Part shown: piece after piece, positions 3,305 to 35,949 of the stretch
Numbering within the stretch: the first letter of the stretch is position 1
How the letters are laid out: each line of letters opens with the position of its first letter
Source: Pseudomonadota bacterium
GTDB lineage: Bacteria; Pseudomonadota; Gammaproteobacteria; Burkholderiales; Burkholderiaceae_C
Length of the DNA stretch: 36,354 nucleotides
Direction: 5' to 3'
NCBI GenBank assembly: GCA_020161215.1
Contig: JAIUOM010000032.1
Coordinates: 1-36,354 of the forward strand
Position numbers and translations under genes: made by a program
The notes under the pieces: generated by a model
What the model saw: the letters and a program-made list of their open reading frames with translations, nothing else
What the model was told of the DNA's origin: nothing
Databases searched by the model: none

Positions 3305-3708
3305 GCACCTCTTTCAGCGCCACCCTGGCCGACATCGCCCAGGCCTGCGGCAACGGCCTGCCCCTGCCGCCCGCCGCCGGCCCCGACACCGTGTTCGCCG
3401 AACCCTGGCAGGCCCACGCCTTCGCCATCACCGTGCAGCTGCACGCGCGTGGCCTGTTCAGCTGGCCGGACTGGGCGCAGGCGCTGAGCGACGAATTGAA
3501 AGCCGCCCAAGCCCGTGGCGAGCCCGACGACGGCACGCGCTACTACGACCACTGGCTGAACGCCCTGGAACAGCTGATCGTCGCCCGCGGCGCCGGCACC
3601 GCGGCGCAGATTCATGCGCTGGAACACGCCTGGGCGGACGCGGCGGCACGCACCCCGCACGGGGAGCCGATTGTGTTGGCGGAGGTCGATTCGCTACTTA
3701 TTTCGTAG
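3301..3708 (+). CDS. Nitrile hydratase accessory protein (activator, P14K-like)
   Basis: This 135-residue protein resembles the N-terminal half of nitrile hydratase beta subunits: EPWQAHAFAITVQLHARGLF matches the [13 protein letters not shown] region of beta, and YYDHWLNALEQLIVARG matches [17 protein letters not shown]. Such proteins act as metallochaperones or self-subunit-swapping partners that load cobalt into alpha. The ATG at 3301 overlaps the beta stop. The stop codon (3706-3708) lies inside a 17-bp palindromic repeat, so the last residues (SLLIS) are encoded by repeat sequence. A diverged second copy of the last 57 codons lies at 5637-5808 beyond the mobile-element region. Family identity is clear; the exact chaperone mechanism is inferred. 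Confidence 0.9.
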   Translation: MSTSFSATLADIAQACGNGLPLPPAAGPDTVFAEPWQAHAFAITVQLHARGLFSWPDWAQALSDELKAAQARGEPDDGTRYYDHWLNALEQLIVARGAGTAAQIHALEHAWADAAARTPHGEPIVLAEVDSLLIS

Positions 3709-3709
3709 C
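3693..3709. repeat. 17-bp palindrome, copy 1 (nitrile hydratase accessory stop)
   Basis: GCTAC-TTATTTC-GTAGC, with 5-bp arms and a 7-nt AT-rich loop. It contains the stop codon of the accessory gene at 3706-3708. Confidence 0.8.
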
Positions 3710-3849
3710 TGCTTTGGAAGTGTTGGCGCCGGCATGTGGCCGAAATGACCTGGATGTGCCTCATCCAAGCTCACGGGGCATGAAGTCTTGAGCCGGTTTG
3801 CCGCGGTCTTCGCCCGAAGTGCGCCGCAGATCGCGACCTGACATCGCGA

Positions 3850-4065
3850 TCAACGACGCGGCGCTGCCCCCGAGCCTTGTGCGGAGAGCAAGAAAATGGT
3901 GCTCCGACCCCGGTTTTTCAACCGCGCGACCCGCTGCTGCATCTCCGGCGGCAACGACTCCCAACTCGGTACCTGGCGCGGCGACTGGAACAGCGGCACC
4001 GGCAGCGTCTCGCCGGCGCGTGTTCGATGGATCCAGACCTCTTGATCGAACCATGGATGCCACGG
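3850..4065 (-). pseudogene. Remnant of a small mobile-element-associated protein (DUF5372-like, tentative)
   Basis: Read on the minus strand this part gives VRYPWHPWFDQEVWIHRTRAG, then PSWESLPPEMQQRVARLKN, and stops at 3850. The HPWHPWF..EV opening resembles DUF5372 proteins found beside transposases and recombinases, and the LPPE...RVARL part resembles other small IS-linked proteins. No start codon with a ribosome site is visible, because the upstream side runs straight into the 53-bp repeat and an IS3 tail. It is probably a broken gene. The family assignment is from memory of the motif and is uncertain. Confidence 0.35.
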
Positions 4066-4117
4066 GTAGCGCACGACCCTCGACTCGTTACTATGGGTGT
4101 TGCGTTGATGGCTTGTA
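4065..4117 (+). repeat. 53-bp inverted repeat, left arm
   Basis: It matches the reverse complement of 5589-5641 at every one of 53 positions; the next base (4118 versus 5588) differs. Its inner end codes for VDGLY of an IS3 transposase tail; its outer end runs into the minus-strand remnant at 3850-4065. Confidence 0.92.
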
Positions 4118-4259
4118 CAACCACTCGCGGCTACATTCGGCACTGGGTTACCTCAGCCCGATGCAGTTCGAACAACGCTGGTTGGCGGCGCAGCGCAAAT
4201 CTGCCGCTCGAGATCGGGCTATGCACTCCGGTTTTCAGGGGCAACCTCAGCGTTATTGA
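4104..4259 (+). pseudogene. IS3-family transposase, C-terminal fragment (left)
   Basis: The reading VDGLYNHSRLHSALGYLSP followed by MQFEQRWLAAQ is the C-terminus of the DDE integrase of IS3-family OrfB, whose usual form is YN..R.H..LGY.SP..FE. Only the last 52 codons or so are left; the catalytic D,D,E residues are gone. The fragment ends at the TGA at 4257-4259, 23 nt before the hydrolase start. Its first residues are encoded by the 53-bp inverted repeat. It differs in sequence from the tail at 5486-5602, so the two come from different IS3 elements. Confidence 0.8.
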
Positions 4260-4282
4260 GGAAACGTACAAGGAGATGTTCA

Positions 4283-5641: not shown

Positions 5642-5808
5642 ACTACACCCACTGGCTCAACGCGCTGGAAAAACTGATCGTCGCCCGCGGCGCCGGAACC
5701 GCCGAGCAGATCCACGCGCTCGAACATGCGTGGGCCGACGCGGCCGAGCGCACGCCACATGGTGCGCCGATTGCGTTGGGTGACGGCGATTTGCTGCGAA
5801 TTTTGTAG
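5637..5808 (+). pseudogene. 3' fragment of a second nitrile hydratase accessory gene
   Basis: The frame reads HYTHWLNALEKLIVARGAGT, then AEQIHALEHAWADAAERTPHG, ending GDGDLLRIL and TAG. It aligns residue for residue with the last 57 codons of the intact gene at 3301-3708, but with many substitutions, roughly four bases in five identical by eye. It has no start, no ribosome site and no upstream half, so it cannot be a working gene. Its stop codon lies inside a copy of the 17-bp palindrome at the same place as in the intact gene, so both copies descend from a sequence that already carried the repeat. Confidence 0.85.
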
Positions 5809-5809
5809 C
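5793..5809. repeat. 17-bp palindrome, copy 2 (accessory fragment stop)
   Basis: GCTGC-GAATTTT-GTAGC; one arm mismatch. It contains the stop codon TAG at 5806-5808 and is followed by CACTAG..CTAGCG half-repeats that look like an extension of the same repeat family. Confidence 0.65.
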
Positions 5810-5858
5810 TACTAACACTAGATCCACTAGCGCCAGCGCCTCAAAACACCGCTAAAAA

Positions 5859-8800
5859 TCAAGCCACCTGCTGCCCCTGCGGCGCGGCGCCTGGATTGCG
5901 CCACTGGCCCATCAGCTCGGTCCAGCGCGCACGTGCGGCCTTCAGGTTACGCTCCTTGACGTGGCCGTAGCCCTTGATCTGCTCGGGAATGCGCGCGATC
6001 TCGACGGCCTGGGCGTGCTTGTCGCTGCTGAGCAGGCCCAGCACTTCCTCGATGCTGGCGCGGTACTGCTGGATCAGGGCGCGCTCGGTCTGGCGCTCCT
6101 CGGTCTTGCCGAACAGATCCAGCGCGGTGCCGCGCAGGCCTTTCAGCTTGGCCAGCAGACGGAAGTTGCGCAGCATGCTGGGGCCGTACTTCTTCTTGAC
6201 CAGCTCGCCCTTGTCGTTGCGGTCGGCCGTCATGGGCGGCGCCAGGTGGTAGTTGAGGGTGAAATCGCCCTCGAACATACCCTCGATGCGCGCCACAAAG
6301 GCCGGGTCGCTGTGCAGGCGAGCGACTTCGTACTCGTCCTTGTAGGCCATCAGCTTGAACAGGCCGCGTGCCACGGCCTCGCTCAGGCTGGTCTTGCCGC
6401 CCAGCGGGCTTTCGGCCTGCTGCACCTTGGCCACGAAGGCGCGGTACTGCTCGGCGTAGGCGGCGTTCTGGTAGCCGGTGAGAAACTCCACGCGCCGCGC
6501 GATGATCGAGTCCAGCGTTTCGCGCTTCTTGAACTCGATCACCTGCGCGCCGCCGCCCGCGCCGGCCAGGGCTTTTTCGATCCGGCTGAAGTCGTGCGCG
6601 GCCTGGCGGCCCCACTCGAAGGCGGCCTTGTTGTTGTCGACCTGCACGTTGTTCAGCTCCATGGCGCGCAGCAGCGATTCGCGCGCCAGCGGCACCCAAC
6701 CCTTCTGCCAGGCGTAGCCCAGCAGCATCGGGTTGATGTACAGGGTGTCGCCCATCAGGCGGCCGGCCACGGCGTCGGCATCGAACATGCCCAACCCGCC
6801 CACCCCGACGGCGCGCGCGATATCGGACGCGCAGCGCTCGGCCGGGTTCTGCCAGTTGCCATCGCGCACGAAGGCGGCCGTGGGCGTGCCGTGCGAGTTG
6901 AGCGCCACGTGGGTGCGGCCCTCGCGCATGCGCAGCACGGTTTCCTTGTTGGCGGCGACGATGGGGTCGCAGCCGATGATCAGGTCGGCCGAGGCCATGC
7001 CCACGCGCGTGGTGCGGATGTCGTCCTGCGTGGCGCCGATCAGCACGTGGCTCCAGGTGGCGCCGCCTTTTTGCGCCAGGCCCGCCGCGTCCTGCGTGAC
7101 GATGCCCTTGCCTTCCATGTGCGCGGCCATGCCCAGCAGCTGGCCAATGGTGATGACGCCGGTGCCGCCCACGCCGGCCACCACGATGCCCCAGGCGCTG
7201 CCCGGCGCGGGGGCGTGCTGCGTCGGCTCGGGCAAGGGCCCCAGCTCAAACGGCGAAACGCCGGCCTGCGTCTTGGCCTTTTTCTTCAGCTGGCCGCCTT
7301 CCACGGTGATGAAGCTGGGGCAAAAGCCCTTCACGCAGCTGATGTCCTTGTTGCAGGTGCTCTGGTTGATGGTGCGCTTGCGGCCGAACTCGGTCTCCAG
7401 CGGCTCCACCGACAGGCAGTTGCTCTGCACGCTGCAGTCGCCGCAGCCTTCGCACACCAGCTCGTTGATGACCACGCGCACGGCCGGGTCGACCATCTTG
7501 CCGCGCTTGCGGCGGCGGCGCTTTTCGGTGGCGCAGGTCTGGTCGTAGATGATGACGGTGGTGCCCTTGATCTCGCGGAATTCGCGCTGCACGGCGTCCA
7601 GCTTGTCGCGGTGGTGGATGTCGATGCCGTCGGGCAGGCCCTTGGCGCGGGCGCCGTCGTACTTCTCGGGCTCGTCGGTGACGATGGTGATCTTGGCGGC
7701 GCCCTCGGCGCGCATGTTCTGCGCGATCTGCACCACCGACAGGCCTTCGGGCCGCTCGCCGATCTGCTGGCCACCGGTCATGGCCACGGCGTCGTTGTAG
7801 AGGATCTTGTAGGTGATGTTGACGCCGGCCGTGACGGCCTGGCGCACCGCCAGCGAGCCGCTGTGGTAGTAGGTGCCGTCGCCCAGGTTGGCGAACATGT
7901 GCTGGTCGGTGCTGAACGGCTGCTGCCCGACCCAGGGCACGCCCTCGCCGCCCATCTGCGTGAAGCCGACGGTGCTGCGGTCCATCCAGATGGTCATGAA
8001 GTGGCAGCCGATGCCGGCCATGGCACGGCTGCCCTCGGGCACGCGGGTGCTGGTGTTGTGCGGGCAGCCCGAGCAGAACCAGGGCAGGCGATCGGCGCCG
8101 CTGCCGGCCGCTTGCACGGTCTTGAGGGTGCGCTCGGAGGCGTCCAGCACGGCCAATTGGCGGTCCAGGCGCGCCTGCATGTCGCTGTCGATGCCCAGGC
8201 GGGTCAGGCGCTGGGCGATGGCGCGGGCGATCTGTGCCGGTGTCAGGTCGGCCGTGGCCGGCAGCAGCACGTTGGCCGTGGGGTTGGCGCGCGCCCATTC
8301 GCCGCCCGAGAAATCACCCGCCGCGCCTTCGTGGTACTTGCCCAGCACGTTGGGGCGCACGTCGGGGCGCCAGTTGTACAGCTCTTCCTTCAACTGGTAT
8401 TCGATGACCTGGCGTTTTTCTTCCACCACCAGGATCTCGCGCAGGCCGGTGGCGAATTCGCGTGTGATCTGCGCCTCCAGCGGCCACACCACGCCCACCT
8501 TGTGCAGGCGGATGCCAAGCTGCCGGCAGGCCGCCTCGTCCAGGCCCAGATCCAGCAGCGCCTGGCGCGTGTCGTTGAAAGCCTTGCCGCTGGCGATGAT
8601 GCCGAGCCGGTCGTTCGGGCCGGCGATGACGTCGTAGTTGAGCCGGTTGGCGCGCACGTAGGCCAGCGCGGCGTACCACTTGTAGTTGAACAGGCGCTCT
8701 TCCTGCGGCAGCGCGGCGTCGGGCCAGCGGATGTGCAGGCCGCCGGGCGGCATGTCGAAATCGGTCGGCAGCTGGATCTGCACCCGCTCCGGGTCGATCA

Positions 8801-9473
8801 TGGCCGTGGCGCTGGATTCGACGATCTCCTGGATCGTCTTCATGCTGGTCCACACACCGGCGTAGCGGCTCATGGCAAAGGCGTGGATGCCCAAGTCCAG
8901 AATTTCCTGCACCGAGGACGGGAAGAACACCGGCAGCCCGCAGGCCTTGAAGATGTGGTCGCTCTGGTGCGCGGCCGTGGAGCTTTTGGCCACGTGGTCG
9001 TCGCCGGCGATGGCGATCACGCCGCCCCACGGCGTGGTGCCGGCCATGTTGCCGTGCTTGAACACGTCCGAGCAACGATCGACGCCCGGGCCCTTGCCGT
9101 ACCAGATGCCGAACACGCCATCAAAGCGGTTGCTGCCCGGGGGCGCAAAGCCCAGTTGCTGCGTTCCCCACACGGCGGTGGCGGCCAGCTCCTCGTTCAC
9201 CCCCGGCTGAAACACGATGTTCTGCTGCTCCAGGTGCTTGCGCGCCGCCCACAGGGCCTGATCGTAGCCACCCAGCGGCGAGCCGCGGTAACCGCTGACG
9301 AAGCCGGCGGTGTTCTTGCCCACCAGCGCATCGCGCTGGCGCTGCAACATGGGCAGTTTGACCAGGGCCTGGATGCCGCTCATGAAGGCGCGGCCGTGGT
9401 CCAGGCTGTATTTGTCGTCCAGCGTGACGGTCTCAAGCGCCTTGCGGATGTGCTCGGGCAGGGGGGCATTCAT
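5859..9473 (-). CDS. Indolepyruvate ferredoxin oxidoreductase, fused alpha/beta (2-oxoacid:acceptor oxidoreductase)
   Basis: A 1204-residue cytoplasmic enzyme that oxidatively decarboxylates aryl-2-oxoacids such as indolepyruvate to the acyl-CoA, passing electrons to ferredoxin. Domains in order: N-terminal pyrimidine-binding domain (about 25-240, with GFVSGYRGSPLGGYD); a central thiamine-diphosphate domain (about 465-650, with CSGCPHNTSTRVPEGS and LGDGTYYHSG); an iron-sulfur segment (Cys674, 677, 680, 686, 707, 713, 718); the gamma domain (about 760-950, GVGGTGVITIGQLLG); and a C-terminal extension to the end. This long fused form is usual in beta- and alphaproteobacteria. It is divergent from an Lrp/AsnC gene with 175 bp between them, the common arrangement for aromatic amino acid breakdown. 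Confidence 0.93.
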   Translation of the reverse strand: MNAPLPEHIRKALETVTLDDKYSLDHGRAFMSGIQALVKLPMLQRQRDALVGKNTAGFVSGYRGSPLGGYDQALWAARKHLEQQNIVFQPGVNEELAATAVWGTQQLGFAPPGSNRFDGVFGIWYGKGPGVDRCSDVFKHGNMAGTTPWGGVIAIAGDDHVAKSSTAAHQSDHIFKACGLPVFFPSSVQEILDLGIHAFAMSRYAGVWTSMKTIQEIVESSATAMIDPERVQIQLPTDFDMPPGGLHIRWPDAALPQEERLFNYKWYAALAYVRANRLNYDVIAGPNDRLGIIASGKAFNDTRQALLDLGLDEAACRQLGIRLHKVGVVWPLEAQITREFATGLREILVVEEKRQVIEYQLKEELYNWRPDVRPNVLGKYHEGAAGDFSGGEWARANPTANVLLPATADLTPAQIARAIAQRLTRLGIDSDMQARLDRQLAVLDASERTLKTVQAAGSGADRLPWFCSGCPHNTSTRVPEGSRAMAGIGCHFMTIWMDRSTVGFTQMGGEGVPWVGQQPFSTDQHMFANLGDGTYYHSGSLAVRQAVTAGVNITYKILYNDAVAMTGGQQIGERPEGLSVVQIAQNMRAEGAAKITIVTDEPEKYDGARAKGLPDGIDIHHRDKLDAVQREFREIKGTTVIIYDQTCATEKRRRRKRGKMVDPAVRVVINELVCEGCGDCSVQSNCLSVEPLETEFGRKRTINQSTCNKDISCVKGFCPSFITVEGGQLKKKAKTQAGVSPFELGPLPEPTQHAPAPGSAWGIVVAGVGGTGVITIGQLLGMAAHMEGKGIVTQDAAGLAQKGGATWSHVLIGATQDDIRTTRVGMASADLIIGCDPIVAANKETVLRMREGRTHVALNSHGTPTAAFVRDGNWQNPAERCASDIARAVGVGGLGMFDADAVAGRLMGDTLYINPMLLGYAWQKGWVPLARESLLRAMELNNVQVDNNKAAFEWGRQAAHDFSRIEKALAGAGGGAQVIEFKKRETLDSIIARRVEFLTGYQNAAYAEQYRAFVAKVQQAESPLGGKTSLSEAVARGLFKLMAYKDEYEVARLHSDPAFVARIEGMFEGDFTLNYHLAPPMTADRNDKGELVKKKYGPSMLRNFRLLAKLKGLRGTALDLFGKTEERQTERALIQQYRASIEEVLGLLSSDKHAQAVEIARIPEQIKGYGHVKERNLKAARARWTELMGQWRNPGAAPQGQQVA

Positions 9474-12366: not shown

Positions 12367-12768
12367 TCGGTTTTCTTTCGCAAGGTTTTCAGAAGAAAAC
12401 GCATCCTACACATATTTTTTAGCCGCGTAGTTAGCGGACGCTCTCCATAGGAATAGCCAACGCAGTGGCCGCCGAGATAAAGCACCACATCCAGGTCCTG
12501 CCCACGGCGCACACTTGAAAAGCGCGCCTGATTTCAGCGCGGGCATGGCGTCGCTCCGGGGCCTGGCGGGTTCTGAAACACTTCAAAAAGAGGGCTGTCC
12601 ATCTCGAAGAACGCCAACCCTTTTGATTCGCCCAGGGCGCTCACCGATTCAGGCGCGCGCTGGGCGTAGGCGGGGTAGCGCGCGGCCAATCCCAGTGGGC
12701 AACAAAAAACCCCAAATGTCGGCGTGTAATTTCGCTGTTGCGCTACTATTTTTGTAGCTCAATATTGT
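12367..12768. other. 402-bp intergenic stretch
   Basis: No convincing gene. Near the dehydrogenase start lies the inverted repeat GTTTTC-AGAA-GAAAAC (12385-12400), in its probable leader. Near the other end is palindrome copy 3. Between them, one minus-strand frame stays open for about 60 codons with a protein-like reading (ALGESKGLAFFEMDSPLFEV) but has no start or ribosome site and is not recognised; it may be a gene relic. Confidence 0.5.
12742..12758. repeat. 17-bp palindrome, copy 3 (downstream of phoX-like gene)
   Basis: GCTAC-TATTTTT-GTAGC, a perfect palindrome with a T5 loop, 11 bp beyond the stop of the DUF839 phosphatase gene. Confidence 0.8.
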
Positions 12769-16202: not shown

Positions 16203-16204
16203 GC

Positions 16205-16831
16205 TTACTGCATTTTTTGTAGCTGATTGGCCAATGCAGCCGCCGACTTGACGTCCATTTTCTCGAATACGCGGGACCGGTGCACCTCCACCGTGCGCAC
16301 GCTGATGCCCAGCTCGTCGGCGATGCGCTTGTTGGGCTGGCCCTCGGCCACCAGGCGCATCACGTCGCGCTCGCGCTCGGTCAGCTCCTGCACGCGCGCC
16401 GTCAGCCCCCGCCGCACGTTGAGTTGCGCCACGCGCTCGTGCGACAGGGTCAGCGCCTGCACCACCCGGTCCACCAGGGCGTTGTCGGAGAAGGGTTTCT
16501 CGCAAAAATCAAAGGCGCCGCGCTTGACGGCATCGACCGCGGTGGCCACATCGGCGTGGCCGGTGAGGAAGATGACGGGCCAGGCGTGGGCCACGCCGGC
16601 GTCCAGCAGGCGATCAAACAGCGCCAGCCCGCTCATGCCGGGCATGCGCACGTCGAGCAGGATGCAACCGGGCTGATCGGGCTCCTCGGTGCCGACGGCG
16701 GACAGAAAATCCTCGGCGCTGGAAAAGCCGGCCGACAGCAGGCGCCGCGAGCGCAGCAGCCAGGCCATGGCCTCGCGCACGCTGGCGTCGTCGTCGATGA
16801 GGTAGACCGTGGCGTCACCGCTGGAGTGCAT
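16205..16831 (-). CDS. FixJ/NarL-type two-component response regulator (orphan)
   Basis: A 208-residue regulator. The receiver domain (about 8-120) has the acidic pair IDDD, the phosphoacceptor Asp60 in LLDVRMPG, threonine in FLTGHAD and lysine in FCEKPFS. A LuxR-type helix-turn-helix follows (about 140-205, LTERERDVMRLVAEGQPNKRIADELGIS in shorter pieces, then VEVHRSRVFEKM). This pattern is FixJ-like. No sensor kinase is adjacent, so its partner must lie elsewhere. The last codons and the stop overlap a copy of the 17-bp palindrome (16207-16223), which encodes the unusual tail LQKMQ. Confidence 0.93.
   Translation of the reverse strand: MHSSGDATVYLIDDDASVREAMAWLLRSRRLLSAGFSSAEDFLSAVGTEEPDQPGCILLDVRMPGMSGLALFDRLLDAGVAHAWPVIFLTGHADVATAVDAVKRGAFDFCEKPFSDNALVDRVVQALTLSHERVAQLNVRRGLTARVQELTERERDVMRLVAEGQPNKRIADELGISVRTVEVHRSRVFEKMDVKSAAALANQLQKMQ
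16207..16223. repeat. 17-bp palindrome, copy 4 (response regulator stop)
   Basis: ACTGC-ATTTTTT-GTAGC, degenerate on one arm. It overlaps the stop codon and last codons of the response regulator. Confidence 0.5.
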
Positions 16832-17448: not shown

Positions 17449-18771
17449 ATGAAAGTGATCGTTCTGGGCGGCGGCGTGATCGGCATCAGCACCGCTTATG
17501 CGCTGGCGCGCGGCGGCGCCGACGTCACCGTGATCGAGCGCCAGGAGGGCCCGGCGCTGGAAACCAGCTTTGCCAACGCCGGCCAGGTCTCGCCCGGCTA
17601 TTCCACGCCCTGGGCCGCACCCGGCATCCCGCTGAAAGCCATCAAGTGGCTGTTTCAGCGCCACGCGCCGCTGGCCATCCGCCCCGACGGCACGCTGCAC
17701 CAACTGCGCTGGATGGCGCAGATGCTGCGCAACTGCACCCAGGCGCGCTACGCCGTCAACAAAGAGCGCATGACCCGCGTGGCCGAATACAGCCGCGACT
17801 GCTTGCGCCAGTTGCGCCAGGACACCGGCATCGACTACGACCAGCGCACCCTGGGCACGCTGCAGGTTTTTCGCACCCACAAGCAGCTGCAGGCCGCGCA
17901 GCGCGACATCGCCGTGCTGGCCGAATGCGGCGTGCCGCACCGCCTGATCACCGGCACCGAGGGGCTGGCCGAGATCGAACCCGCGCTGGCCCACGCCAGC
18001 GGCCTGGTCGGCGGCCTGCACCTGCCCGGCGACGAAACCGGCGATTGCCAGCGCTTTTCCACCCAACTGGCCGAACGGGCCGGGGCGCTGGGTGTGCGGT
18101 TTCGCTTTGGCACCCGCATCGAACGCCTGGTGACCCGGGGGCGCAGCGTGAGCGGCGTGGCGGTGGTCACGCCAGAAGGGCAGCGCGAGGAGCTGAGCGC
18201 CGACCAGGTGGTGCTGGCGCTGGGCAGCTATTCGCGCCAGGTGCTGGCGCCGCTGGGCCTGAACTTGCCGGTGTACCCGGTGAAGGGCTATTCGCTCACC
18301 GCCGACCTGGTGGATGCCGAGCGCGCGCCACGCTCCACCGTGATGGACGAGACCTACAAGATCGCCCTGACCCGCCTGGGCGAGCGCCTGCGCGTGGGCG
18401 GCATGGCCGAGCTGGGCGGGTTTGACTTGGCGCTGGACCCACGCCGCCGCGCCACGCTGGAAATGGTGACCACCCAGCTGTTCGCCGGCGCCGCCGACCT
18501 GCCGGCCGCCAGCTTCTGGACCGGCCTGCGCCCCATGACGCCGGACGGCACGCCCATCCTGGGCCGCGCCCCCGGTTGGGACAACCTGCTGCTGGGCACC
18601 GGCCACGGCACCCTGGGCTGGACCATGGCGGCCGGCACCGGCCAGCTGCTGGCCGATGTGGCCCTGGGCCGCCCGACGGCCATCAGCCTGACAGGCCTGG
18701 GACTCGATCGCTACTCAAACAATAGCAATCAACCGAAATTCGGCGCCGGCAACCGGCCAATTCACGCCTGA
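17449..18771 (+). CDS. dadA: D-amino acid dehydrogenase
   Basis: DadA is a membrane-associated flavoenzyme that oxidises D-alanine and other D-amino acids to oxo-acids, feeding electrons to the respiratory chain. The FAD-binding motif is [20 protein letters not shown] at the N-terminus; [45 protein letters not shown] and [14 protein letters not shown] are all family stretches. GAGGG lies 8 nt before the ATG at 17449. The protein would be expected to end near LTGLGLDRY; here the frame runs through a 17-bp palindromic repeat (18710-18726) and adds the tail [18 protein letters not shown]. No alanine racemase gene is next to it. Confidence 0.95.
18710..18726. repeat. 17-bp palindrome, copy 5 (inside dadA tail)
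   Basis: GCTAC-TCAAACA-ATAGC (one G:T-type arm mismatch), inside the last 21 codons of dadA, where it encodes part of the non-conserved tail. Confidence 0.75.
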
Positions 18772-18885
18772 AACCTGAAAATTCGGGGCGGCCGACGGAC
18801 ATTTCGCACACACCGTCGGCCCGTGGCCCGGACGACGCCGCGTGAATCTGCGATCCTCTGGGGCTTGCTGTCCCCGGAGTCGAGT

Positions 18886-20110: not shown

Positions 20111-20127
20111 GCTATCTAATAAATAGC
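20111..20127. repeat. 17-bp palindrome, copy 6 (between convergent stops)
   Basis: GCTAT-CTAATAA-ATAGC, perfect arms, 19 bp after the lipase-like gene and 14 bp after the convergent DJ-1/PfpI gene. No other terminator is visible between them. Confidence 0.82.
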
Positions 20128-29363: not shown

Positions 29364-29371
29364 AGGGCGGT

Positions 29372-29380: not shown

Positions 29381-29443
29381 CGCCAGCCCCCCTAGGGACC
29401 GCCCCATGGCCTTCTCTTCAGGGACAGGCCAGAATTGCCCTGA

Positions 29444-29472
29444 CTTGAAAGTCGAGAAGATGCCGTCATCTA
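29444..29472 (+). promoter_or_regulatory. Sigma-32 heat-shock promoter of cbpA-cbpM
   Basis: CTTGAAA (29444-29450) equals the sigma-32 -35 consensus. After 13 nt comes CGTCATCTA (29464-29472), which matches 7 of 9 positions of CCCCATnTA. Position 55 nt before a DnaJ-family gene and the correct spacing support the call. Confidence 0.7.
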
Positions 29473-29477
29473 AACTG

Positions 29478-29505
29478 GAGCAAACGGCTGCCCGGCTGTT
29501 TGCTC
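29478..29505 (+). promoter_or_regulatory. Inverted repeat in the cbpA leader
   Basis: GAGCAAAC (29478-29485) and GTTTGCTC (29498-29505) are perfect arms with a 12-nt centre; GC/GC inside the arms extends the pairing with one mismatch. It overlaps the expected transcription start and leader. It is not the CIRCE element. It could be a repressor operator or a temperature-sensitive hairpin close to the start codon. Confidence 0.55.
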
Positions 29506-29526
29506 TGTAGAAAGACATCACCCCCC

Positions 29527-30540
29527 ATGGAGTTCAAGGATTACTACCAGATCCTCGGCGTGGACAAGAGTGCCACCGCCGACGGTATCAAGAAGGCCTA
29601 CCGCAAGCTCGCCCGCCAATACCATCCCGACATCAGCAAGGAGGCCGACGCCGCACAGCGCATGGCGGAGATCAACGAGGCCAACGCGGTGCTCTCCGAC
29701 GCCGAGAAGCGCGCCGCCTACGACACGGTGGGCGCCCAAGCCTGGGCGCGGGGTGCGCGCTCGGGCGACGATGTGAGGCCGCCGCCGGGCTGGAACGCCG
29801 GTTACGAGTTCTCGGACAGTGGACCGGAAAACTTTCGCGCCAATTTCAGCGACGGGAACGGGGGCCATTTCAGCGAGTTCTTCGAGCAGATGTTCGGGCG
29901 TGCCCAGGCCGGCGAAGGCACCCGCGCGCGCGCGCGACGCGCCTACTCGGACCAGGGCGATGCACAGCCGCGCATGCGAGGCGAAGACCAGCACGCGCGC
30001 ATCGAGCTTGAGCTGATCGACGCCTGCCGCGGTGCCGAGCGCCAGATCAGCCTGCGTGGCGCCAAGCTGGACGCCAACGGGCACGTGGTGCCCGAGGAGC
30101 GCACGCTGCAGGTCAAGATTCCGCCCGGCGTCAAGGAAGGCCAGCTGATTCGGCTGGCCGGCCAGGGCGGCCCGGGCTACAACGGCGGCCCGGCCGGCGA
30201 CCTGCTGCTGGAGGTGCAGATCCGCCCCGACCCGCGCTGGCGTGTCGACGGCCGCGACGTGATCCAGCGGTTGCGCGTCGCGCCCTGGGAAGCGGCCCTG
30301 GGCGCCAGCGTCGAGATCGCCACACCCGACGGCAAGGCCGTGGAAGTCACCGTGCCCAGCGGCTCTGGCGCGGGGCGCAAGCTGCGCCTGAAGGGGCGAG
30401 GCATTCCCTCCAGCAACACCCCCGGCGATCTGTACCTGGAGCTGGAAATCGCCGTGCCCGGGGCCGTCACCCCCGAGCAGAACACCGCATGGGAAGCCTT
30501 GTCGGGCGCCTACCCCGGCTTTGATCCGCGCCGCGTATGA
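29527..30540 (+). CDS. cbpA: DnaJ-family co-chaperone CbpA (curved-DNA-binding protein)
   Basis: A 337-residue J-domain protein that stimulates DnaK and can bind curved DNA. The J domain is at about 4-68 (DYYQILGVDKSATADGIKKA, HPD at 33-35). A glycine/phenylalanine region follows, then the two beta-barrel C-terminal domains (IKEGQ-type region VKIPPGVKEGQLIRLAGQGG; GDLLLEVQIRPDPRW; GDLYLELEIAVP). There is no cysteine-rich zinc finger, which separates it from DnaJ proper. ATG at 29527; the leader holds a strong inverted repeat. The cbpM gene follows after 56 nt. Confidence 0.94.
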   Translation: MEFKDYYQILGVDKSATADGIKKAYRKLARQYHPDISKEADAAQRMAEINEANAVLSDAEKRAAYDTVGAQAWARGARSGDDVRPPPGWNAGYEFSDSGPENFRANFSDGNGGHFSEFFEQMFGRAQAGEGTRARARRAYSDQGDAQPRMRGEDQHARIELELIDACRGAERQISLRGAKLDANGHVVPEERTLQVKIPPGVKEGQLIRLAGQGGPGYNGGPAGDLLLEVQIRPDPRWRVDGRDVIQRLRVAPWEAALGASVEIATPDGKAVEVTVPSGSGAGRKLRLKGRGIPSSNTPGDLYLELEIAVPGAVTPEQNTAWEALSGAYPGFDPRRV

Positions 30541-30596
30541 ACCTTTCCATCGACTTCGTCTCAGTCCTATAAAAGCTAAAAAGGGAGAGTGCCGAT

Positions 30597-30920
30597 ATGA
30601 GCCCCACCACACCCACCCTGGTCCCTGCCGAACTGGTTGAACTGTTGGACGACGCCGCCCTGACGCTGCACGAGCTGGCGCAAGGCTGCAGCGTCACGCC
30701 TGAATGGGTCCATGTTCACGTGGAAGCCGGTGTGCTGATCCCCGCGCGGGGCTCGCAAGCCGCCGAATGGCGTTTTGCCATCGCCACGCTGACGCGCGCG
30801 CGCCGCATCGCCGAGCTGGAATACACCTACGACGCGGATCCGCAGCTGGCCGCACTGGCCACCGACCTGATGGAAGAAGTGGCGCAGCTGCGCCGCCAGC
30901 TGGTGTTGCTGGGCGGGTAG
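30597..30920 (+). CDS. cbpM: Chaperone modulator CbpM
   Basis: CbpM binds the J domain of CbpA and blocks its co-chaperone activity. The 107-residue product has a MerR-like helix-turn-helix fold (TLHELAQGCSVTPEWVHVHV) and a C-terminal helix (ALATDLMEEVAQLRRQLVLL), the usual CbpM layout, and it lies directly after cbpA. AGGGAG is about 9 nt before the ATG at 30597. Probably one transcript with cbpA, so the inhibitor is made with its target. Confidence 0.9.
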   Translation: MSPTTPTLVPAELVELLDDAALTLHELAQGCSVTPEWVHVHVEAGVLIPARGSQAAEWRFAIATLTRARRIAELEYTYDADPQLAALATDLMEEVAQLRRQLVLLGG

Positions 30921-30973
30921 TAGAGACAAATTGCACTGGAAAGACGGCCCGACGCCCTGGCAGCGCGGGTGCC

Positions 30974-31004
30974 CTGTCCCTTACGCGGGGACACGGAGGG
31001 ACAG
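30974..31004. terminator. Possible bidirectional hairpin between cbpM and the glycine-zipper gene
   Basis: TGTCCC-TTACGCG-GGGACA (30975-30993) is a perfect 6-bp stem; CTGTCCC can pair instead with GGGACAG at 30998-31004. The two flanking genes converge here. There is no clear T-tract, so termination is only suggested. Confidence 0.35.
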
Positions 31005-31018
31005 ATGCCGGCTTGGGT

Positions 31019-31840
31019 TTACCAGCCGTTGCCGATACTGACGCCCCAGCCCACGCCATGGTGGCGGCCCCAGCCGCTGCCCACCGACAGGCTGACGCCG
31101 ATCGGCACGCGGTACATCGGCGCGGGCGCCATCATCACCGGCGCCGCCGGGTAGGCGGCAGGCGCGTACACCGGTTGCGGGTAGGCCTGAGGGTAGGTTT
31201 GGGGATAGGCCTGCTGCGGGTAAGCCGAATACCCACCGCCATAGACCGGTTGCACCGGCGCGCGGACCACGCCGGCCGACTGCTCGCCAATGGCCGGCGG
31301 GATCGGGTAGGCCCCCATTTGAGGCATCGGCGCCGGGTAGGCCTGGGCCTGCGGGGCGCCGCCATAGGCGCCGTAGCCGCCATTGGGATCGCCGCCCGGA
31401 TAAGGCACCTGAACCCAGGCGCCGGGCGCCTGCGCGGTGCGCGTGCGGTATTGGCGCCCACCCCATTCGTAAGTGACGTCGTAGCCGGTCAGCTGGTTTT
31501 GGTAGCCGGTGGCGCAGTTGCCGCCGTAATAGCCGCCTTGCTGCGCCTCCACCGTGTTGCCCAGCAGCGCGCCGCCCAGGGCGCCCAGCATGGCGCCCGC
31601 GATGTGGCCCGCGCCCTTGCCGATCTGGCTGCCGATCAGGCCGCCGGTGAGGGCGCCAATGGCCGCGCCGCCGCCCGAGCTGCCCCGGCCAGGCGCGCAG
31701 GTGTTGACCGGCACCGCTTCGTAAACCGGCGCGGCGGCCAGCACACGGGCGTTGACCATGGCCTGGGCCTGGACGCCAGCGGCGCCCAGGGACAGCAAGG
31801 CCAGAACGGACAGACGGGTGGTGACAGCAGAGCGGTTCAT
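31019..31840 (-). CDS. Glycine-zipper 2TM-domain outer-membrane/surface protein
   Basis: A 273-residue exported protein. A signal peptide ends near GVQAQA. A glycine-zipper segment follows (about 57-95: SSGGGAAIGALTGGLIGSQI, GKGAGHIAGAMLGALGGALL), the hallmark of the 17-kDa surface antigen/SlyB-like group. Then a small conserved part (GYDVTYEWGGRQYRTRTAQA) and a long low-complexity region rich in Tyr, Pro, Ala and Gln, with repeats of the form YPQ(A/T). The C-terminus VGWGVSIGNGW is Gly/Trp-rich. Such proteins insert in the outer membrane or periplasmic face; a precise role is not known. It converges with cbpM and reads away from the acetoacetyl-CoA synthetase region. Confidence 0.82.
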   Translation of the reverse strand: MNRSAVTTRLSVLALLSLGAAGVQAQAMVNARVLAAAPVYEAVPVNTCAPGRGSSGGGAAIGALTGGLIGSQIGKGAGHIAGAMLGALGGALLGNTVEAQQGGYYGGNCATGYQNQLTGYDVTYEWGGRQYRTRTAQAPGAWVQVPYPGGDPNGGYGAYGGAPQAQAYPAPMPQMGAYPIPPAIGEQSAGVVRAPVQPVYGGGYSAYPQQAYPQTYPQAYPQPVYAPAAYPAAPVMMAPAPMYRVPIGVSLSVGSGWGRHHGVGWGVSIGNGW

Positions 31841-31865
31841 GGTGGTTCTTTCGGCAATCCAGATC

Positions 31866-31900
31866 GGGACGCGCCGCGCACGGGCGCCCCGCTTTTTTTT
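31866..31900 (+). terminator. Terminator-like hairpin with T8 on the plus strand
   Basis: GGG-AC-GCGCC, loop, GGCGC-CCC (31866-31890) folds into an 8-bp stem with a 2-nt bulge, followed by GC and eight T (31893-31900). It faces plus-strand transcripts, although no plus-strand gene ends here. Confidence 0.45.
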
Positions 31901-32023
31901 ACAACGCGGCCGCCGTGTCGATCGCCGACGGCCTTTACACGCGCTTCACAAATCCCGCTCCTGCCCGGCCATTGTGCCCGCCAGGCGCCACGCTGTCACG
32001 TTGGGCGGAATTTTCCCTATTTC

Positions 32024-32040
32024 ACTATCAATAACGTAGC
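32024..32040. repeat. 17-bp palindrome, copy 7 (downstream of acetoacetyl-CoA synthetase)
   Basis: ACTAT-CAATAAC-GTAGC, degenerate on one arm, 42 bp beyond the stop of the synthetase gene on its 3' side. Confidence 0.5.
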
Positions 32041-32082
32041 TTATCAGGCTGATTGGACGCCGGCTGTTGACCAAAAACACCT

Positions 32083-34257
32083 TCATTTCTGATCCGTGCG
32101 CCGGCGCGCGAACGCCTCGTACCAGGCCAGCACGCCCGGATTGGCCATGGCTTCCTTGTTGACCACCTTTTCCAGCGGCTGGCCCAGCAGCAGCTTCTTG
32201 ATCGGCAATTCCTGCTTCTTGCCGGACAGGGTGCGGGGGACTTCGGGCACCTGAAAGATGTCGTCGGGCACGAAGCGCGGGCTCAAGCTGACCCGGATGG
32301 CGTCCGACAGGCGCTTTTTCAGGCCCGCGTCCAGCTCCACTCCCGGGCGCAGCACCACGAACAGCGGCATGTAGCTGTCGCGGCCCAGGTATTCCAGATC
32401 GACCACCATCGAGTCGAGCACCTCGGGCAGGCCCTCGACCGCGCTGTAGATCTCGCTGGTGCCCATGCGCAGGCCGTGGCGGTTGATGGTGGCGTCGGAG
32501 CGCCCGTAGATCACGCACCATTCGCCTTGGCCCTGCTCGTCGCCGATGCGCAACCAATCGCCATGGCGCCACACCGGACCGGCGTCTGCCGGCAGGTCAC
32601 CGCCGCCGGGCTTGCGGCCGTGACCGGGCGGGTACATCTCGAAATAGCTGGCACGGTAGCGGGCACCATCGGGGTCGCCCACCAGGTACAGCGGCATCGA
32701 CGGGATGGGCTGGGTGCACACCAGCTCGCCGACCTGGCCCACGACAGGCGCGCCGGCATCGTTCCAGGCCTCCACGGCGGCGCCCAGCATGCGGCACTGC
32801 ATCAGCCCGGGCTGCTGCGGCAGCTCGCGGTTGCCACCGATGAACGCGCCGCAGAAGTCGGTGCCACCTGAGATATTGGCCCACCAGATGTCGCCCCCAC
32901 GCTCCACGGCTGCGCCTGTTGCGCTGCCCCCCGAGGGGGCCGCACCCGGCCTTGGGAGCGGCCCGACGCCCGGGTGGTCGCTCTCACGCCCTAGTGTTGC
33001 GCCGGACGCGATGCGCCGAAACTGATCATTCACCCACTGCTGCACCTCCGCCGCCAGCGGCGAGCCGGTGCTGCCCAGTGCCCGCACGCGCGACAAATCG
33101 CCGCACTGTGCCAAATCCAGCCCGGCCTTCATGCAGTTGGCGTAAAAGGCCGCGCCGGCGCCAAAGAAGCTGACCCGGTGGCGCGCCGCGAAGCGCCACA
33201 GCACGCCCCAGTCGGGCTGGTCCTTGCTGCCGCCGGGGCTGCCATCAAAGATGACGCAGGTGGTGCCACTCATCAGGCCCGCCAACTGCGCGTTCCACAT
33301 CACCCAGCCGGTCGAGCTGTACCAGTGGTAGCGCTCGCCGAAGGTCTCCGGCGCGTAGCTGCAACCGATGTCGTTGTGCAGGGCGCCGAGCATCATCATC
33401 ACCAAAATCATGCCGCCGTGCCCGTGCACGATGGGCTTGGGCAGGCCGGTGGTGCCGCTGGAGTACACCACCCACAGCGGATGATCGAAGGGCAGCCAGA
33501 GCGGCTCAAAGGCCTCGGTTTCGGCGTCATTTTGGGCGGTGGCCAGCGCGAAATCAAAGCTTTCAGCTATGATTTTTGATGTCCCCAGGTTGCGCTGCAA
33601 CAGCAGGTGGGTGACGCTGGGCAGCGCCGCGCGCAGGGCCTCGACCACGTCCAGGCGCTCCAGATCGCGCCCGGCCCAGGTCACGCCGTCGCAGGCGATC
33701 AGCACCTTGGGCTCAATCTGCTTGAAGCGGTCGAGCACGGCGCTCGTGCCCATGTCCGGCGCGCACACGCTCCACACCGCGCCAATGCTGGCGGTGGCCA
33801 GAAACGCCACCAGGGTCTCGGGAATGTTCGGCAGATAGGCCCCCACCCGGTCGCCGGGCTGCACACCCTGGGCCTTCAGGTGCAGGGCCAGCGCCGCCAC
33901 CTGGCGCCGCAGCTCGGGCCAGGACAGCTCGCGCGCCTGGCCTTTTTCGTTGTCGCTGACCACCGCCGGCAAGCCCGCCGCCTGCGCCGGCGCCACGTGC
34001 CGAAGCACCTGGCGCGCGTAATTGACTTGCGCGCCGGGAAACCACTCGGCACCCGGCATCACGTTCCTGGCCAGCACCGCACGGTGCGGGGTCGGCGACC
34101 GCACGTCGAAGTAATCCCAGATGCTTTGCCAAAAGGCGTCCAGATCGGTGACCGACCAACGCCACAACGCGTGGTAGTCGTCGAACGCCAGACCGCGCGT
34201 GTCGCGCAGCCAGTTCTGGTAGTGGCGGATGCGGGGCAGGGGCGAGGTCTTGCTCAT
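32083..34257 (-). CDS. Acetoacetyl-CoA synthetase (acetoacetate-CoA ligase) with repeat insertion
   Basis: A 724-residue adenylate-forming enzyme that activates acetoacetate to acetoacetyl-CoA in the cytoplasm, used in ketone body or PHB-related metabolism. Visible features: the N-terminal ACAS motif region (FWQSIWDYFDVRSPTPHRAV, MPGAEWFPGAQVNYA), the AMP motif YSSGTTGLPKPIVHGHGG (about 265-282), ISGGTDFCGAF and the C-terminal domain ending with the lysine motif SGKKQELPIKKLLLG. Residues 420-454 (bases 33000-32896) are an in-frame insertion of repeat DNA between RRIASG and GDIWWANISGG. A second repeat-like stretch lies at residues 226-240. The ATG at 34257 has no Shine-Dalgarno sequence. Confidence 0.9.
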   Translation of the reverse strand: MSKTSPLPRIRHYQNWLRDTRGLAFDDYHALWRWSVTDLDAFWQSIWDYFDVRSPTPHRAVLARNVMPGAEWFPGAQVNYARQVLRHVAPAQAAGLPAVVSDNEKGQARELSWPELRRQVAALALHLKAQGVQPGDRVGAYLPNIPETLVAFLATASIGAVWSVCAPDMGTSAVLDRFKQIEPKVLIACDGVTWAGRDLERLDVVEALRAALPSVTHLLLQRNLGTSKIIAESFDFALATAQNDAETEAFEPLWLPFDHPLWVVYSSGTTGLPKPIVHGHGGMILVMMMLGALHNDIGCSYAPETFGERYHWYSSTGWVMWNAQLAGLMSGTTCVIFDGSPGGSKDQPDWGVLWRFAARHRVSFFGAGAAFYANCMKAGLDLAQCGDLSRVRALGSTGSPLAAEVQQWVNDQFRRIASGATLGRESDHPGVGPLPRPGAAPSGGSATGAAVERGGDIWWANISGGTDFCGAFIGGNRELPQQPGLMQCRMLGAAVEAWNDAGAPVVGQVGELVCTQPIPSMPLYLVGDPDGARYRASYFEMYPPGHGRKPGGGDLPADAGPVWRHGDWLRIGDEQGQGEWCVIYGRSDATINRHGLRMGTSEIYSAVEGLPEVLDSMVVDLEYLGRDSYMPLFVVLRPGVELDAGLKKRLSDAIRVSLSPRFVPDDIFQVPEVPRTLSGKKQELPIKKLLLGQPLEKVVNKEAMANPGVLAWYEAFARRRTDQK
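32926..32964. repeat. Double-hairpin GC-rich repeat inside acetoacetyl-CoA synthetase
   Basis: Two overlapping palindromes: GCCCCC-CGA-GGGGGC (32926-32940) and GGGCCGC...GCGGCCC (32937-32943 with 32958-32964). This two-hairpin form is like a repeat I know from Comamonadaceae intergenic DNA; here it lies in frame within a coding sequence. Confidence 0.7.
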
Positions 34258-34264
34258 GCCGCCG

Positions 34265-34293
34265 ATTATTGGCCGACGGCCCCGACGAGGTCC
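34265..34293 (-). promoter_or_regulatory. Possible promoter of acetoacetyl-CoA synthetase
   Basis: On the minus strand TGGACC, 18 nt, AATAAT (34270-34265) gives a weak sigma-70-like pair. AATAAT ends 7 nt before the ATG, so the transcript would have almost no leader. Confidence 0.35.
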
Positions 34294-34390
34294 ATCGGCA
34301 GCAGATCGGACGCCGGGAACTCAAACGCCACCAGTGCAGCTCAGCGGCGCATCCCTGGGCCGGCCAAGCGGTGAACGACGGGTCAGCCGA

Positions 34391-35137
34391 TCAATCGAAC
34401 AACCGCCACACCATTTCCACCCCCGCCACCCACAAATCGTCCACCGACGTCGTGGTCACGTCGGTCTGGTGCCAGCGGTTTTGCTGCGCCTCGCGGCGGG
34501 CGCGTTCGCGGTCCCGCTCCAGGGTGATCAGCGCGTCGGCCAGATCGGCCGGGCGGGGGCCTTCCTGGGCACGGTGGCTTTGCTGGCCGTAGCCGGCCAG
34601 CGCGCGCTCCACCGCCTGCGGATCAAGCAGCGAGAACGCAGCGCGGCAGTACGGGCAGGCGTGGTCCTGGCGCAGATCGACCGGCGCGCCACAGCTGCCG
34701 CAATGGATCACGCGCACGCGCTCGGCCAGCGCCTCGACCTCGAGCGGGCTCAGCTGGCGCACGAAACCCTTTTCGATCATGAAGGACGAAAAGGTGGAAA
34801 AGCGCCCATGCCGCCGCGCACAGCGGTAGGTGATGTAGCGACCGGCGCGCACCATGTCGGAGCCCCGCGCCAGGGTGCTCCGGCAACGCGGGCAATTCAG
34901 CGCCTGCGCGAGGGGCGTTTGCGCGTCGTCGCGGTGCGCGTGCAGGATGCGAAACAGCTCGACCACGCCGGCCGGGGCCATGCGCTGGTTTTCGTTGCCG
35001 TCGAACCAGATGCCGTGGCAGGCGTGGCACAGATCCAGCTCCAGCGTGCCGCCCTGGTGGCTGGCGATCCGGTGCACGGCCATCGGCGCGCGGCAGGACG
35101 GGCAGGCGGTGGGCGCGGGGGCAAGTCGGTCAACCAT
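34391..35137 (-). CDS. Zinc-ribbon (TFIIB-type) domain protein, unknown role
   Basis: A 248-residue, probably cytoplasmic protein with several zinc-binding knuckles: CPSC...CHAC near the N-terminus with the zf-TFIIB signature LELDLCHACHGIWFDGNE, then CPRC, then CGSC...CPYC (about 145-170). A charged helical part follows (ALITLERDRERARREAQQN). No enzymatic motif is seen. Such proteins are common next to unrelated genes and have no firm function. It is divergent from rsmE, with about 57 bp between the starts. Confidence 0.8.
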   Translation of the reverse strand: MVDRLAPAPTACPSCRAPMAVHRIASHQGGTLELDLCHACHGIWFDGNENQRMAPAGVVELFRILHAHRDDAQTPLAQALNCPRCRSTLARGSDMVRAGRYITYRCARRHGRFSTFSSFMIEKGFVRQLSPLEVEALAERVRVIHCGSCGAPVDLRQDHACPYCRAAFSLLDPQAVERALAGYGQQSHRAQEGPRPADLADALITLERDRERARREAQQNRWHQTDVTTTSVDDLWVAGVEMVWRLFD

Positions 35138-35194
35138 GGTGGGCCGATGCTACCCCGGCCAAGGGACGTAACATCGGGCCCACCGCGCTTGCCC

Positions 35195-35920
35195 ATGCCC
35201 AGATTCCACGTTCCCCTGCCCTTGTCGCCCGGTGCCCGGCTTGAGCTGCCCGCGGGCGCCGCGCGCCACGTGCAGGTGCTGCGCCTGCAACCGGGCGCCT
35301 CGATCACGCTGTTCAACGGCGAAGGCGGCGAATGGACGGCCAGCGTCGCGCGCATGACGCGCAGCGCGGTCGAGGTGACGCTGCAGGCGCACGACGCGGT
35401 GGAGCGCGAAGCACCACGCGCGGTGCACCTGGCCGTGGCCCTGATGGCCGCCGAACGGCTGGACTGGCTGATTGAAAAGGCCACCGAGCTGGGCGCGGCC
35501 GGCTTCATCCCCCTGCTGGCCGAGCGCAGCAGCCTGCGCCTGACCGGCGAGCGCGCCGCGCGCAAGCTGGCGCACTGGCGGGCGGTGGCGGTGGCCGCCT
35601 GCGAGCAAAGTGGGCGCAACCGGGTGCCCGACGTGGCCGAACCGGTGGCGCTGCCCGACTGGCTGGCGGCTGGCCTCCCGCACACCGGCCCTTGCTGGAT
35701 GCTGGCGCTGGACGCCCCCAGCCAACCGCTGGCCGAAGCCGCCGCCGCCTGGCCCGCCGACGCGCCGCTGACCTTGTTGTCCGGCCCCGAGGGCGGCTTC
35801 AGCCCCCAGGAAGCGGCCGCCGCGCGCGCGGCCGGCTGCACCCCGGTGAGCCTGGGCGCTCGGGTGCTGCGCGCCGAAACCGCGCCGTTGGCGGCGCTGG
35901 CGACGGCGCTGCTGCGCTGA
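35195..35920 (+). CDS. rsmE: 16S rRNA (uracil(1498)-N(3))-methyltransferase RsmE
   Basis: RsmE methylates U1498 of 16S rRNA in the 30S subunit with S-adenosylmethionine. The 241-residue product has the N-terminal PUA-like domain (MPRFHVPLPLSPGARLELPA, HVQVLRLQPGASITLFNGEG) and the C-terminal SPOUT domain with the trefoil-knot motifs: ALMAAERLDWLIEKATELGA, CEQSGRNRVPDV, LLSGPEGGFSPQE and LGARVLRAETAPLAALA. Length is normal. The stop at 35918-35920 is followed 12 bp later by a 17-bp palindrome. Confidence 0.95.
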   Translation: MPRFHVPLPLSPGARLELPAGAARHVQVLRLQPGASITLFNGEGGEWTASVARMTRSAVEVTLQAHDAVEREAPRAVHLAVALMAAERLDWLIEKATELGAAGFIPLLAERSSLRLTGERAARKLAHWRAVAVAACEQSGRNRVPDVAEPVALPDWLAAGLPHTGPCWMLALDAPSQPLAEAAAAWPADAPLTLLSGPEGGFSPQEAAAARAAGCTPVSLGARVLRAETAPLAALATALLR

Positions 35921-35932
35921 AATCGCCAAAAT

Positions 35933-35949
35933 GCTATTATTTACATAGC
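35933..35949. repeat. 17-bp palindrome, copy 8 (downstream of rsmE)
   Basis: GCTAT-TATTTAC-ATAGC, perfect arms, 12 bp after the rsmE stop. Confidence 0.82.

Follow-up and report, generated by a model that had tools for sequence, protein, structure and literature searches.

A strong preference for short motifs during DNA uptake has been described in two bacterial families only (PMC7811141). The uptake signal sequences (USS) change through point mutations rather than by insertion, they possess AT-tracts, and they are depleted in newly acquired segments as well as in coding sequence (PMC7811141). The DNA uptake sequences (DUS) have been reported to exist in eight dialects and to form inverted pairs at terminators (PMC3630211). 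A survey of 2017 lists two motif pairs that were left unexplained, ATAGCT(N)22CAAAAG with 125 copies in Polaromonas naphthalenivorans CJ2 (101 of them intergenic and 34 convergent) and GCTTAT(N)5AAGCG with 114 copies in Acidovorax ebreus TPSY (44 convergent, 4 divergent); among the surveyed genomes Rhodoferax ferrireducens had most motif pairs (PMC5217627). All of this refers to the parts of the three reports used here. In the present study a contig of a Pseudomonadota bacterium was analyzed over 36,354 nucleotides (JAIUOM010000032.1, positions 1 to 36,354; the window), in which an initial annotation had noticed eight copies of a 17-bp palindrome, GCTAY-N7-RTAGC. It was found that the unit is a sharply bounded 69-bp element, of which the palindrome is the left node, and that this element is present in members of one family of the Burkholderiales, the named ones being Comamonadaceae, with many hundreds of copies per genome.

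The element was searched with an iterated weight matrix (expectation maximization, EM), which was run at a threshold of 14 bits, while copies were counted at a cut-off of at least 22 bits. Column-permuted matrices served as null and gave 0–3 matches per scan at the EM threshold, and in 60 simulated windows no score came up to 5 bits. Two samples were compared. The first comprised 61 pieces (786,560 bases or 0.787 Mb, the window included) of the genome to which the window belongs (G000; 4.52 Mb in 250 contigs), the second 0.8 Mb of a genome of the same genus (G346). The first 20 stretches of G000 had been taken from contigs with palindrome matches; the sample as a whole contained 29 exact palindromes in 0.787 Mb, the same density as the 165 in 4.52 Mb of the entire genome. 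An alignment of the sites revealed that the conserved part extends from the palindrome in one direction, at fixed spacing. Conservation reached from about −4 to +64 relative to the palindrome, and beyond these borders only background was seen, to −70 and +139. In G000 the matrix found 149 copies, 142 of them with at least 22 bits (about 800 per genome by extrapolation), and in G346 251 copies reached this cut-off (about 1,350 per genome by extrapolation). Polaromonas relatives seem to carry about a thousand copies per genome. The G000 consensus is roughly ttGCTnY-aAwTt-nATAGC-T-nntcrGGmwntnTnsrCGCCGrC-mwnnGsCnnwTTT..cyc..AA. Two AT-rich nodes about 43 bp apart, the palindrome core at +8 and an AT-box at +51.5, frame a central part of 27 bp.

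All eight palindromes of the initial annotation were verified at their positions, each with the 5+7+5 layout and at most two mismatches. With at most one mismatch the window contained 10 matches versus 1.64 expected, a number reached in 0 of 100 shuffled sequences; the matches at 31361, 33316 and 34577 had been missing from the initial list. The excess over chance was also seen throughout the genome, with 165 exact sites in G000 versus 30 for a control with reversed letters. The view that the palindrome itself is the repeated unit had to be given up. Seven of the eight belong to a 69-bp element (34.6–63.2 bits), whose left end they form, and the one at 20111 does not (3.0 bits). Moreover, the palindrome is exact in just 26 of the 142 G000 copies, and 25 of the 29 exact palindromes of the sample fall into a copy. 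The proposal of a dispersed element is thus retained for the longer unit, with its 142 copies in 0.787 Mb. When 200 genomes of the order were searched, the number of exact sites never exceeded 22 in genomes from outside the family. Within the family the counts were bimodal: by our own tally about 47 of 150 genomes lay above control, with a maximum of 708, and most others had 0–20 sites. An extended pattern in the G000 dialect was compared with named genomes and matched 22 stretches, all of them titled Polaromonas sp. or Comamonadaceae bacterium.

A further comparison concerned orthologous loci, for which each copy in the G000 and G346 samples was mapped to the other sample by both of its flanks. 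In the direction from G000 to G346, 22 copies could be mapped, and 20 of them had a copy between the anchors. With tight anchors a copy was found at 14 of 15 loci, in the same orientation in 14 of 14 cases, and the match in place at the 15th locus had 21.9 bits, just under the cut-off; an earlier, looser mapping had given 22 of 24. At 0.18–0.31 copies per kb, the probability of a chance copy at a tight locus would be about 15% at most. In these 14 tight pairs the own dialect was closer for 13 of the 14 G000 copies and for 14 of the 14 G346 copies. Of seventeen aligned pairs, four stayed in register across both flanks, and each of these lay within a called G000 gene. In three of them the center was only 41–48% identical, compared with 82–91% for the left node and 68–95% for the flanks. 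Six absences in G000 were inspected. Two lay in conserved genes without any gap and with the same aligned length (G346 copies of 38.9 and 23.4 bits), one was an indel that removed two overlapping copies (L123), and three aligned poorly. Thus, the sites persist, some seem to arise or fade by substitution, and the center changes together with its genome. Because the copies stay in place and yet carry the dialect of their own genome, models of insertion and of an RNA element are disfavored.

To follow the dialects further, genomes of the family were scanned with a mixed G000/G346 model reduced to its two ends, and the models were then re-estimated. The same 69-bp frame with differing centers was recovered in seven genomes, and the AT-rich ends were common across genera. 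Four of the genomes, G000, G214, G342 and G346, belong to one genus according to their database labels. The center reads TGCynGCGCytGnynGaCrrGCGCTGnAGGC in G346, and that of G214 is close to it (TGCTcGCGCTTGaynGACAAGCGC), while G342 has TGCyyGCGCAgrTggnTsTAGGGCyrGaGGC. In G229 it is TrnTnAGGCAATAAATACGCCGGCTA, with CGCCGGC in common with G000. From 14 copies each, TGCTTGAGCAGTwttTnCATGGGC was obtained for G233 and TGCTTnsGCnGwnwaanAGGGCG for G208, and the center of G218 was weak (24 copies). The information amounted to 17–23 bits in the left end, 7–13 bits in the right end (4 in G218), and 15–20 bits in the center (9 in G218). Through the shared ends the dialects detected each other at 22 bits or more, the G000 model at 127 places in G346 and the G346 model at 71 places in G000. 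In 160 kb of a further genome (G171) there was little excess, as the frame gave 16 matches versus 6, 10 and 12 in nulls, and a fitted model gave 94 versus 56–69. On visual inspection, five of the seven palindromes there adjoin a GC-rich inverted repeat, which is perhaps another dialect. Taken together, the center differs between most of the sampled genomes and the ends are kept; the element is abundant in the chromosome and has lineage dialects, as is typical of uptake sequences.

Whether the conserved unit is read as DNA or as RNA can be seen from the covariation of its positions. Among 125 non-redundant G000 copies all 25 top covarying pairs were only 1 or 2 bp apart, and the couplings included TTT with AAA at positions 51–53 and TT with AA at 26–27. 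Among 173 class-I copies of G346 35 pairs exceeded the null maximum, and 35 of 35 were at 1–3 bp. When both G346 classes (see below) were pooled, 12 pairs at least 4 bp apart also rose above the null, at positions 37–47 save one at 16/45, and they were gone once the classes had been separated. The palindrome arms pair near independence; for the outer pair in G000 the observed and the expected frequency were both 0.62. The largest excess was 0.85 versus 0.78 at one pair in G346, some pairs lay below expectation, and a possible central stem of G346 likewise paired near independence. A.C or C.A combinations were common at the arms in G000 (49 of 142 copies at 0/16, 61 of 142 at 4/12). Because the covariation is limited to 1–3 bp and the arms behave as independent columns, the element is a double-stranded DNA site and not an RNA hairpin.

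A second arrangement was found in G346, where 25 of 30 close pairs were inverted (plus, then minus) at a distance of 42 or 43 bp, or 26 when the two remaining blocks were added. These pairs form a dyad of 111–112 bp with a center of its own (GATTTCAGAT..ATCTGAAATC; 55 halves). This class was not seen in the 0.787-Mb sample of G000, where two pairs share the left node instead (minus, then plus, at 44 bp). The two nodes of the element, separated by 43 bp, thus behave like contacts that can be used again.

The initial annotation had placed all palindromes at 3′ ends of genes. This holds for the seven element copies concerned, while a further copy is located within a gene, about 1.4 kb from its 3′ end. 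In the samples genes were called with a simple dicodon caller (coding share 0.90 in G000 and 0.81 in G346), and counts of copies in genes are therefore approximate. The intergenic G000 copies comprised 30 in convergent, 55 in tandem and 7 in divergent gaps versus 14.6, 53.5 and 23.9 expected from gap length (p 8e-7). The respective numbers for G346 were 60, 120 and 15 versus 31.9, 120.5 and 42.6 (p 6e-10); seven G000 copies and one G346 copy with a missing gene on one side were excluded from these classes. In both genomes convergent gaps were thus favored and divergent gaps avoided. In tandem gaps 85 copies were oriented with and 90 against transcription. The upstream stop was closer than the next start for 38 of 55 tandem copies in G000 and for 70 of 120 in G346, the latter not being significant (p 0.08). 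Inside called genes, including copies that end at most 10 bp from a gene end, were 43 of 142 copies in G000 (40 by a stricter count) and 55 of 251 in G346, i.e., 22–30%. They lay on the same strand as the gene in 20 and 27 cases and on the opposite strand in 23 and 28 cases, respectively. The placement at 3′ ends is a genuine tendency, which is mostly avoidance of promoters, and not a strict rule. Together, these traits describe sequence-specific double-stranded DNA sites under a genome-wide force that bears specificity and acts also on coding DNA.

Tentatively, we regard the element as a possible uptake-signal-like sequence that reflects biased DNA uptake and recombination. This is the best supported of the readings considered, and it is made by analogy with the Pasteurellaceae and Neisseriaceae, in which biased uptake and recombination have such effects. 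A trans-acting machine that recognizes DNA, with a lineage-specific preference for the center, would keep the sites and rewrite them by substitution and recombination. Uptake would favor DNA with the local dialect, recombination would bring it into the chromosome, and matching alleles would spread (molecular drive), also within genes, as far as the copies are compatible with promoters and proteins. The AT-tracts might supply a bend or kink and the center the specificity. It is conceivable, and we suggest it with reservation, that this is a third, independently evolved uptake-signal system, or an equivalent system of self-recognition, which extends across many genera of the Comamonadaceae type and has an unusually long 69-bp signal with a center dialect that shifts between congeners at orthologous sites. 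If so, the element would be a natural record of the co-evolution of a recognition machine with its genome-wide sites, with about a thousand copies respelled in place between congeners, and it might restrict gene flow from one species to another. The competence machinery is present, as ComEC (PF03772) was found in 42 of 42 genomes, the element-poor ones included.

Several observations weigh against an uptake signal. ComEC together with pilins of the ComP_DUS type (PF16732) occurred in all 42 genomes, 20 rich in elements or palindromes and 22 poor in palindromes, and thus did not discriminate between them. In G346 the ComEC match (C1:3619011-3619842) consists of three pieces in different frames, which points to a broken or mis-sequenced gene and, if real, bears on the matter. 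With about 50 bits per element, where about 13 would suffice for the copy number, the signal is overly rich, and it is longer than the 31-bp USS; the 69-bp unit does not correspond to the short core of about 9–12 bp, or up to 31 bp with flanks, of uptake sequences. The reverse mapping from G346 to G000 was less favorable: 29 copies mapped and 18 had a counterpart, and with tight anchors 13 of 20 did, 12 in the same orientation. The fourth pair in register (L024:11881), whose copy is weak at 27 bits, had a center identity of 67% and a right end of 95%, and thus no fast center. That 136 of 142 copies in G000 and 249 of 251 in G346 fit their own center better is partly due to construction, as the copies of each genome were detected with the model of that genome. 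Even spacing was looked for and not found, as the coefficient of variation was 1.29 with close pairs merged and the copy-poor block B4 omitted (1.42 with all blocks included) versus 0.86–0.93 in nulls; the chromosomal distribution of preferred uptake sequences is itself called uneven in the part of the literature used here (PMC7811141). The contrast between core and accessory DNA, which would in itself fit a depletion in newly acquired DNA, comes from a single stretch of each kind: a copy-free 20-kb stretch (L136) matched 4 of 10 genomes of the genus, and a stretch with six copies matched 10 of 10. L136 is one of four 20-kb pieces without copies (L134, L136, L137, L138) around L135 with nine, in C1 of G346 at 1.50–1.60 Mb. 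It has genes for a topoisomerase and a C5 DNA methylase among five open reading frames (ORFs) scanned and looks like an integrated mobile element. L124–L126 were copy-poor as well, with 1, 0 and 2 copies.

As the main alternative, the element might be the binding site of a protein that wraps chromosomal DNA, e.g., a nucleoid organizer, a topoisomerase target or a roadblock for transcription, with a specificity for the center that has diverged between species and sites that co-evolve. This is possible, though somewhat less likely than an uptake signal. It would explain the AT-blocks and the nodes equally well. Gyrase-type wrapping, DnaA boxes and the sites of Fis and Lrp were considered on general grounds. 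The covariation is of the double-stranded type with interchangeable A/T-tracts, the nodes about 43 bp apart are reused in inverted pairs at 42–43 bp, and convergent gaps are enriched. The mean AT profile also contains a weak component near 10.5–10.75 bp, which is of similar strength to one near 23.5 bp. However, hundreds of sites would have to switch dialect in step with the protein between congeners, the copies in genes are not easily explained and would be costly for a purely functional site, and there is no candidate protein. If the element were such a site, it would point to a major chromosome-organizing protein in an environmentally common family.

An old mobile repeat, spread by a transposase and now decaying, similar to repetitive extragenic palindromic (REP) sequences and their doublets (REPIN) or to miniature inverted-repeat transposable elements (MITE), would account for the high copy number with about 50 bits per copy and for the dyad-symmetric class of 26 pairs; moreover, the absence at L123 is an indel of two overlapping copies. 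Pairwise identities were also more dispersed than after shuffling of columns (standard deviation 0.083 versus 0.055 in G346 with classes pooled, 0.073 versus 0.056 in G000; top pairs 0.83 and 0.84). Two matches to Y1-transposases (PF01797) in G000 (L065, L066) each have a single copy (29.4 and 38.0 bits) at a distance of less than 0.4 kb, which is not striking at about one copy per 5.5 kb. A mobile repeat is nevertheless unlikely, as orthologous copies are retained with a consensus changed in place, the two absences in genes show no gap (one of a weak copy, 23 bits), and no linkage over 4 bp or more exists within a class (12 such pairs when the G346 classes are pooled). The preferential insertion at 3′ ends that had been considered is disfavored by the same retention at orthologous positions and by the gap-free absences. 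The preference of the initial annotation, an RNA element at transcript ends such as a terminator or an mRNA-protecting hairpin, is most improbable. It would fit the enrichment at gene 3′ ends and in convergent gaps, the inverted pairs could form long hairpins, and 35966–35982, part of one copy, resembles a terminator hairpin, while a scan of 17000–36354 gave 13 such sites versus 9.4 expected. That the element acts through the RNA strand is very unlikely because coupling is confined to neighbors, the arms pair near independence, and the orientation in tandem gaps is balanced. Copies in genes occur on both strands, compensatory changes are missing, A.C and C.A are frequent at the arms, and TTT and AAA are interchangeable. 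The traits of an intrinsic terminator, an orientation with transcription and a GC stem followed by a U-run, were thus not found, and also the hairpin was rejected. In addition, Rfam at gathering score gave no match in the window and only tRNAs in five other loci, which counts against an RNA element.

The features of the window are compiled in Table 1.

Table 1. Copies of the 69-bp element and a solitary palindrome in the window.
Feature	Position	Strand	Bits	Palindrome	Location
Element copy	3689..3757	+	60.4	3693-3709, exact	overlaps stop of ORF 3301-3708 (nitrile hydratase beta N-terminal-like, Pfam)
Element copy	5789..5857	+	42.8	5793-5809, one mismatch (arm GCTGC..GTAGC)	1 bp off 3′ end of gene 5859-9473 (-)
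Element copy	12694..12762	-	52.2	12742-12758, exact	6 bp past stop of PhoX-like gene 12769-14727 (-) (Pfam)
Element copy	16203..16271	+	34.6	16207-16223, two mismatches	overlaps 3′ end of response-regulator gene 16205-16831 (-) (Pfam)
Element copy	18706..18774	+	50.8	18710-18726, exact	overlaps last codons of DAO-family gene 17449-18771 (Pfam; dadA in the initial annotation)
Exact palindrome without element	20111..20127		3.0 and -3.2 on the two strands	20111-20127, exact	not a copy
Element copy	32020..32088	+	56.8	32024-32040, one mismatch	3′ end of AMP-binding enzyme gene 32083-34257 (-) (Pfam)
Element copy, absent from the initial annotation	33518..33586	-	41.6	first arm non-palindromic	within gene 32083-34257 (-), about 1.4 kb away from the 3′ end
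Element copy	35929..35997	+	63.2	35933-35949, exact	8 bp past stop of RNA methyltransferase gene (PF04452) ending at 35920

The gene at 5859-9473 (-) encodes a fused protein of 1204 residues with TPP-binding, POR and DUF6537 domains, an architecture that we take to be indolepyruvate-ferredoxin-oxidoreductase-like. A different repeat of about 315 bp is located at L024:2084-2398; it is 82–90% identical between copies and occurs many times in genomes of the genus, several times in G346 and twice more in G000 (C43 and C71).

In the open literature, the scope covered (not subscription journals), no description of the whole 69-bp element was found, and only the 2017 survey has apparent fragments, as far as the parts used here are concerned (PMC5217627). 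The two motif pairs of that survey resemble the element in that their spacings fit its frame (12–17/40–45 and 24–29/35–39), they are mostly intergenic, many are convergent and some are in genes; they are printed as separate pairs, and the 69-bp unit, the dialects, the orthologous retention and the double-stranded covariation are absent from these parts of the survey (PMC5217627). Judged from the printed motifs and their spacing, the pairs are very likely fragments of the element in two further dialects, which would explain both motifs.

With REP sequences, bacterial interspersed mosaic elements (BIME) and REPINs the element shares the dispersed occurrence, the extragenic bias and the inverted doublets (PMC3116915, in the part used here; otherwise general knowledge). 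It differs from them in that their conserved hairpin in single-stranded DNA or RNA is not found, as pairing is near independence, that a signature of copying within a class is missing, and that the dialects turn over in place; the link to REP-associated tyrosine transposases (RAYT) was examined at two loci only. BRE, a betaproteobacterial repeat of about 90 bp, is also dispersed and also occurs in Comamonadaceae, but in Bordetella it is 75–91 bp at full length, has 69% GC, is partly tandem and reaches at most 29 copies per genome, so that it is set apart by its description, not by sequence comparison (PMC3110155, in the part used here).

The closest relatives in behavior are the DUS of the Neisseriaceae and the USS of the Pasteurellaceae. 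Within the parts of the reports used here, they share with the element hundreds to thousands of copies, dialects of lineages, a placement both within genes and at their ends, flanking AT-tracts, and inverted pairs, probably also the change by point mutation and perhaps a lower density in newly acquired DNA, for which one stretch was compared in this study (PMC3630211, PMC7811141). In contrast, their core has 9–10 bp within at most 31 bp, while the element has 69 bp and about 50 bits. It belongs to a different bacterial family, has no known receptor and is known here from sequence alone. Lastly, the inverted pairs of the element overlap via a common node, while those of DUS do not overlap (PMC3630211, in the part used here).

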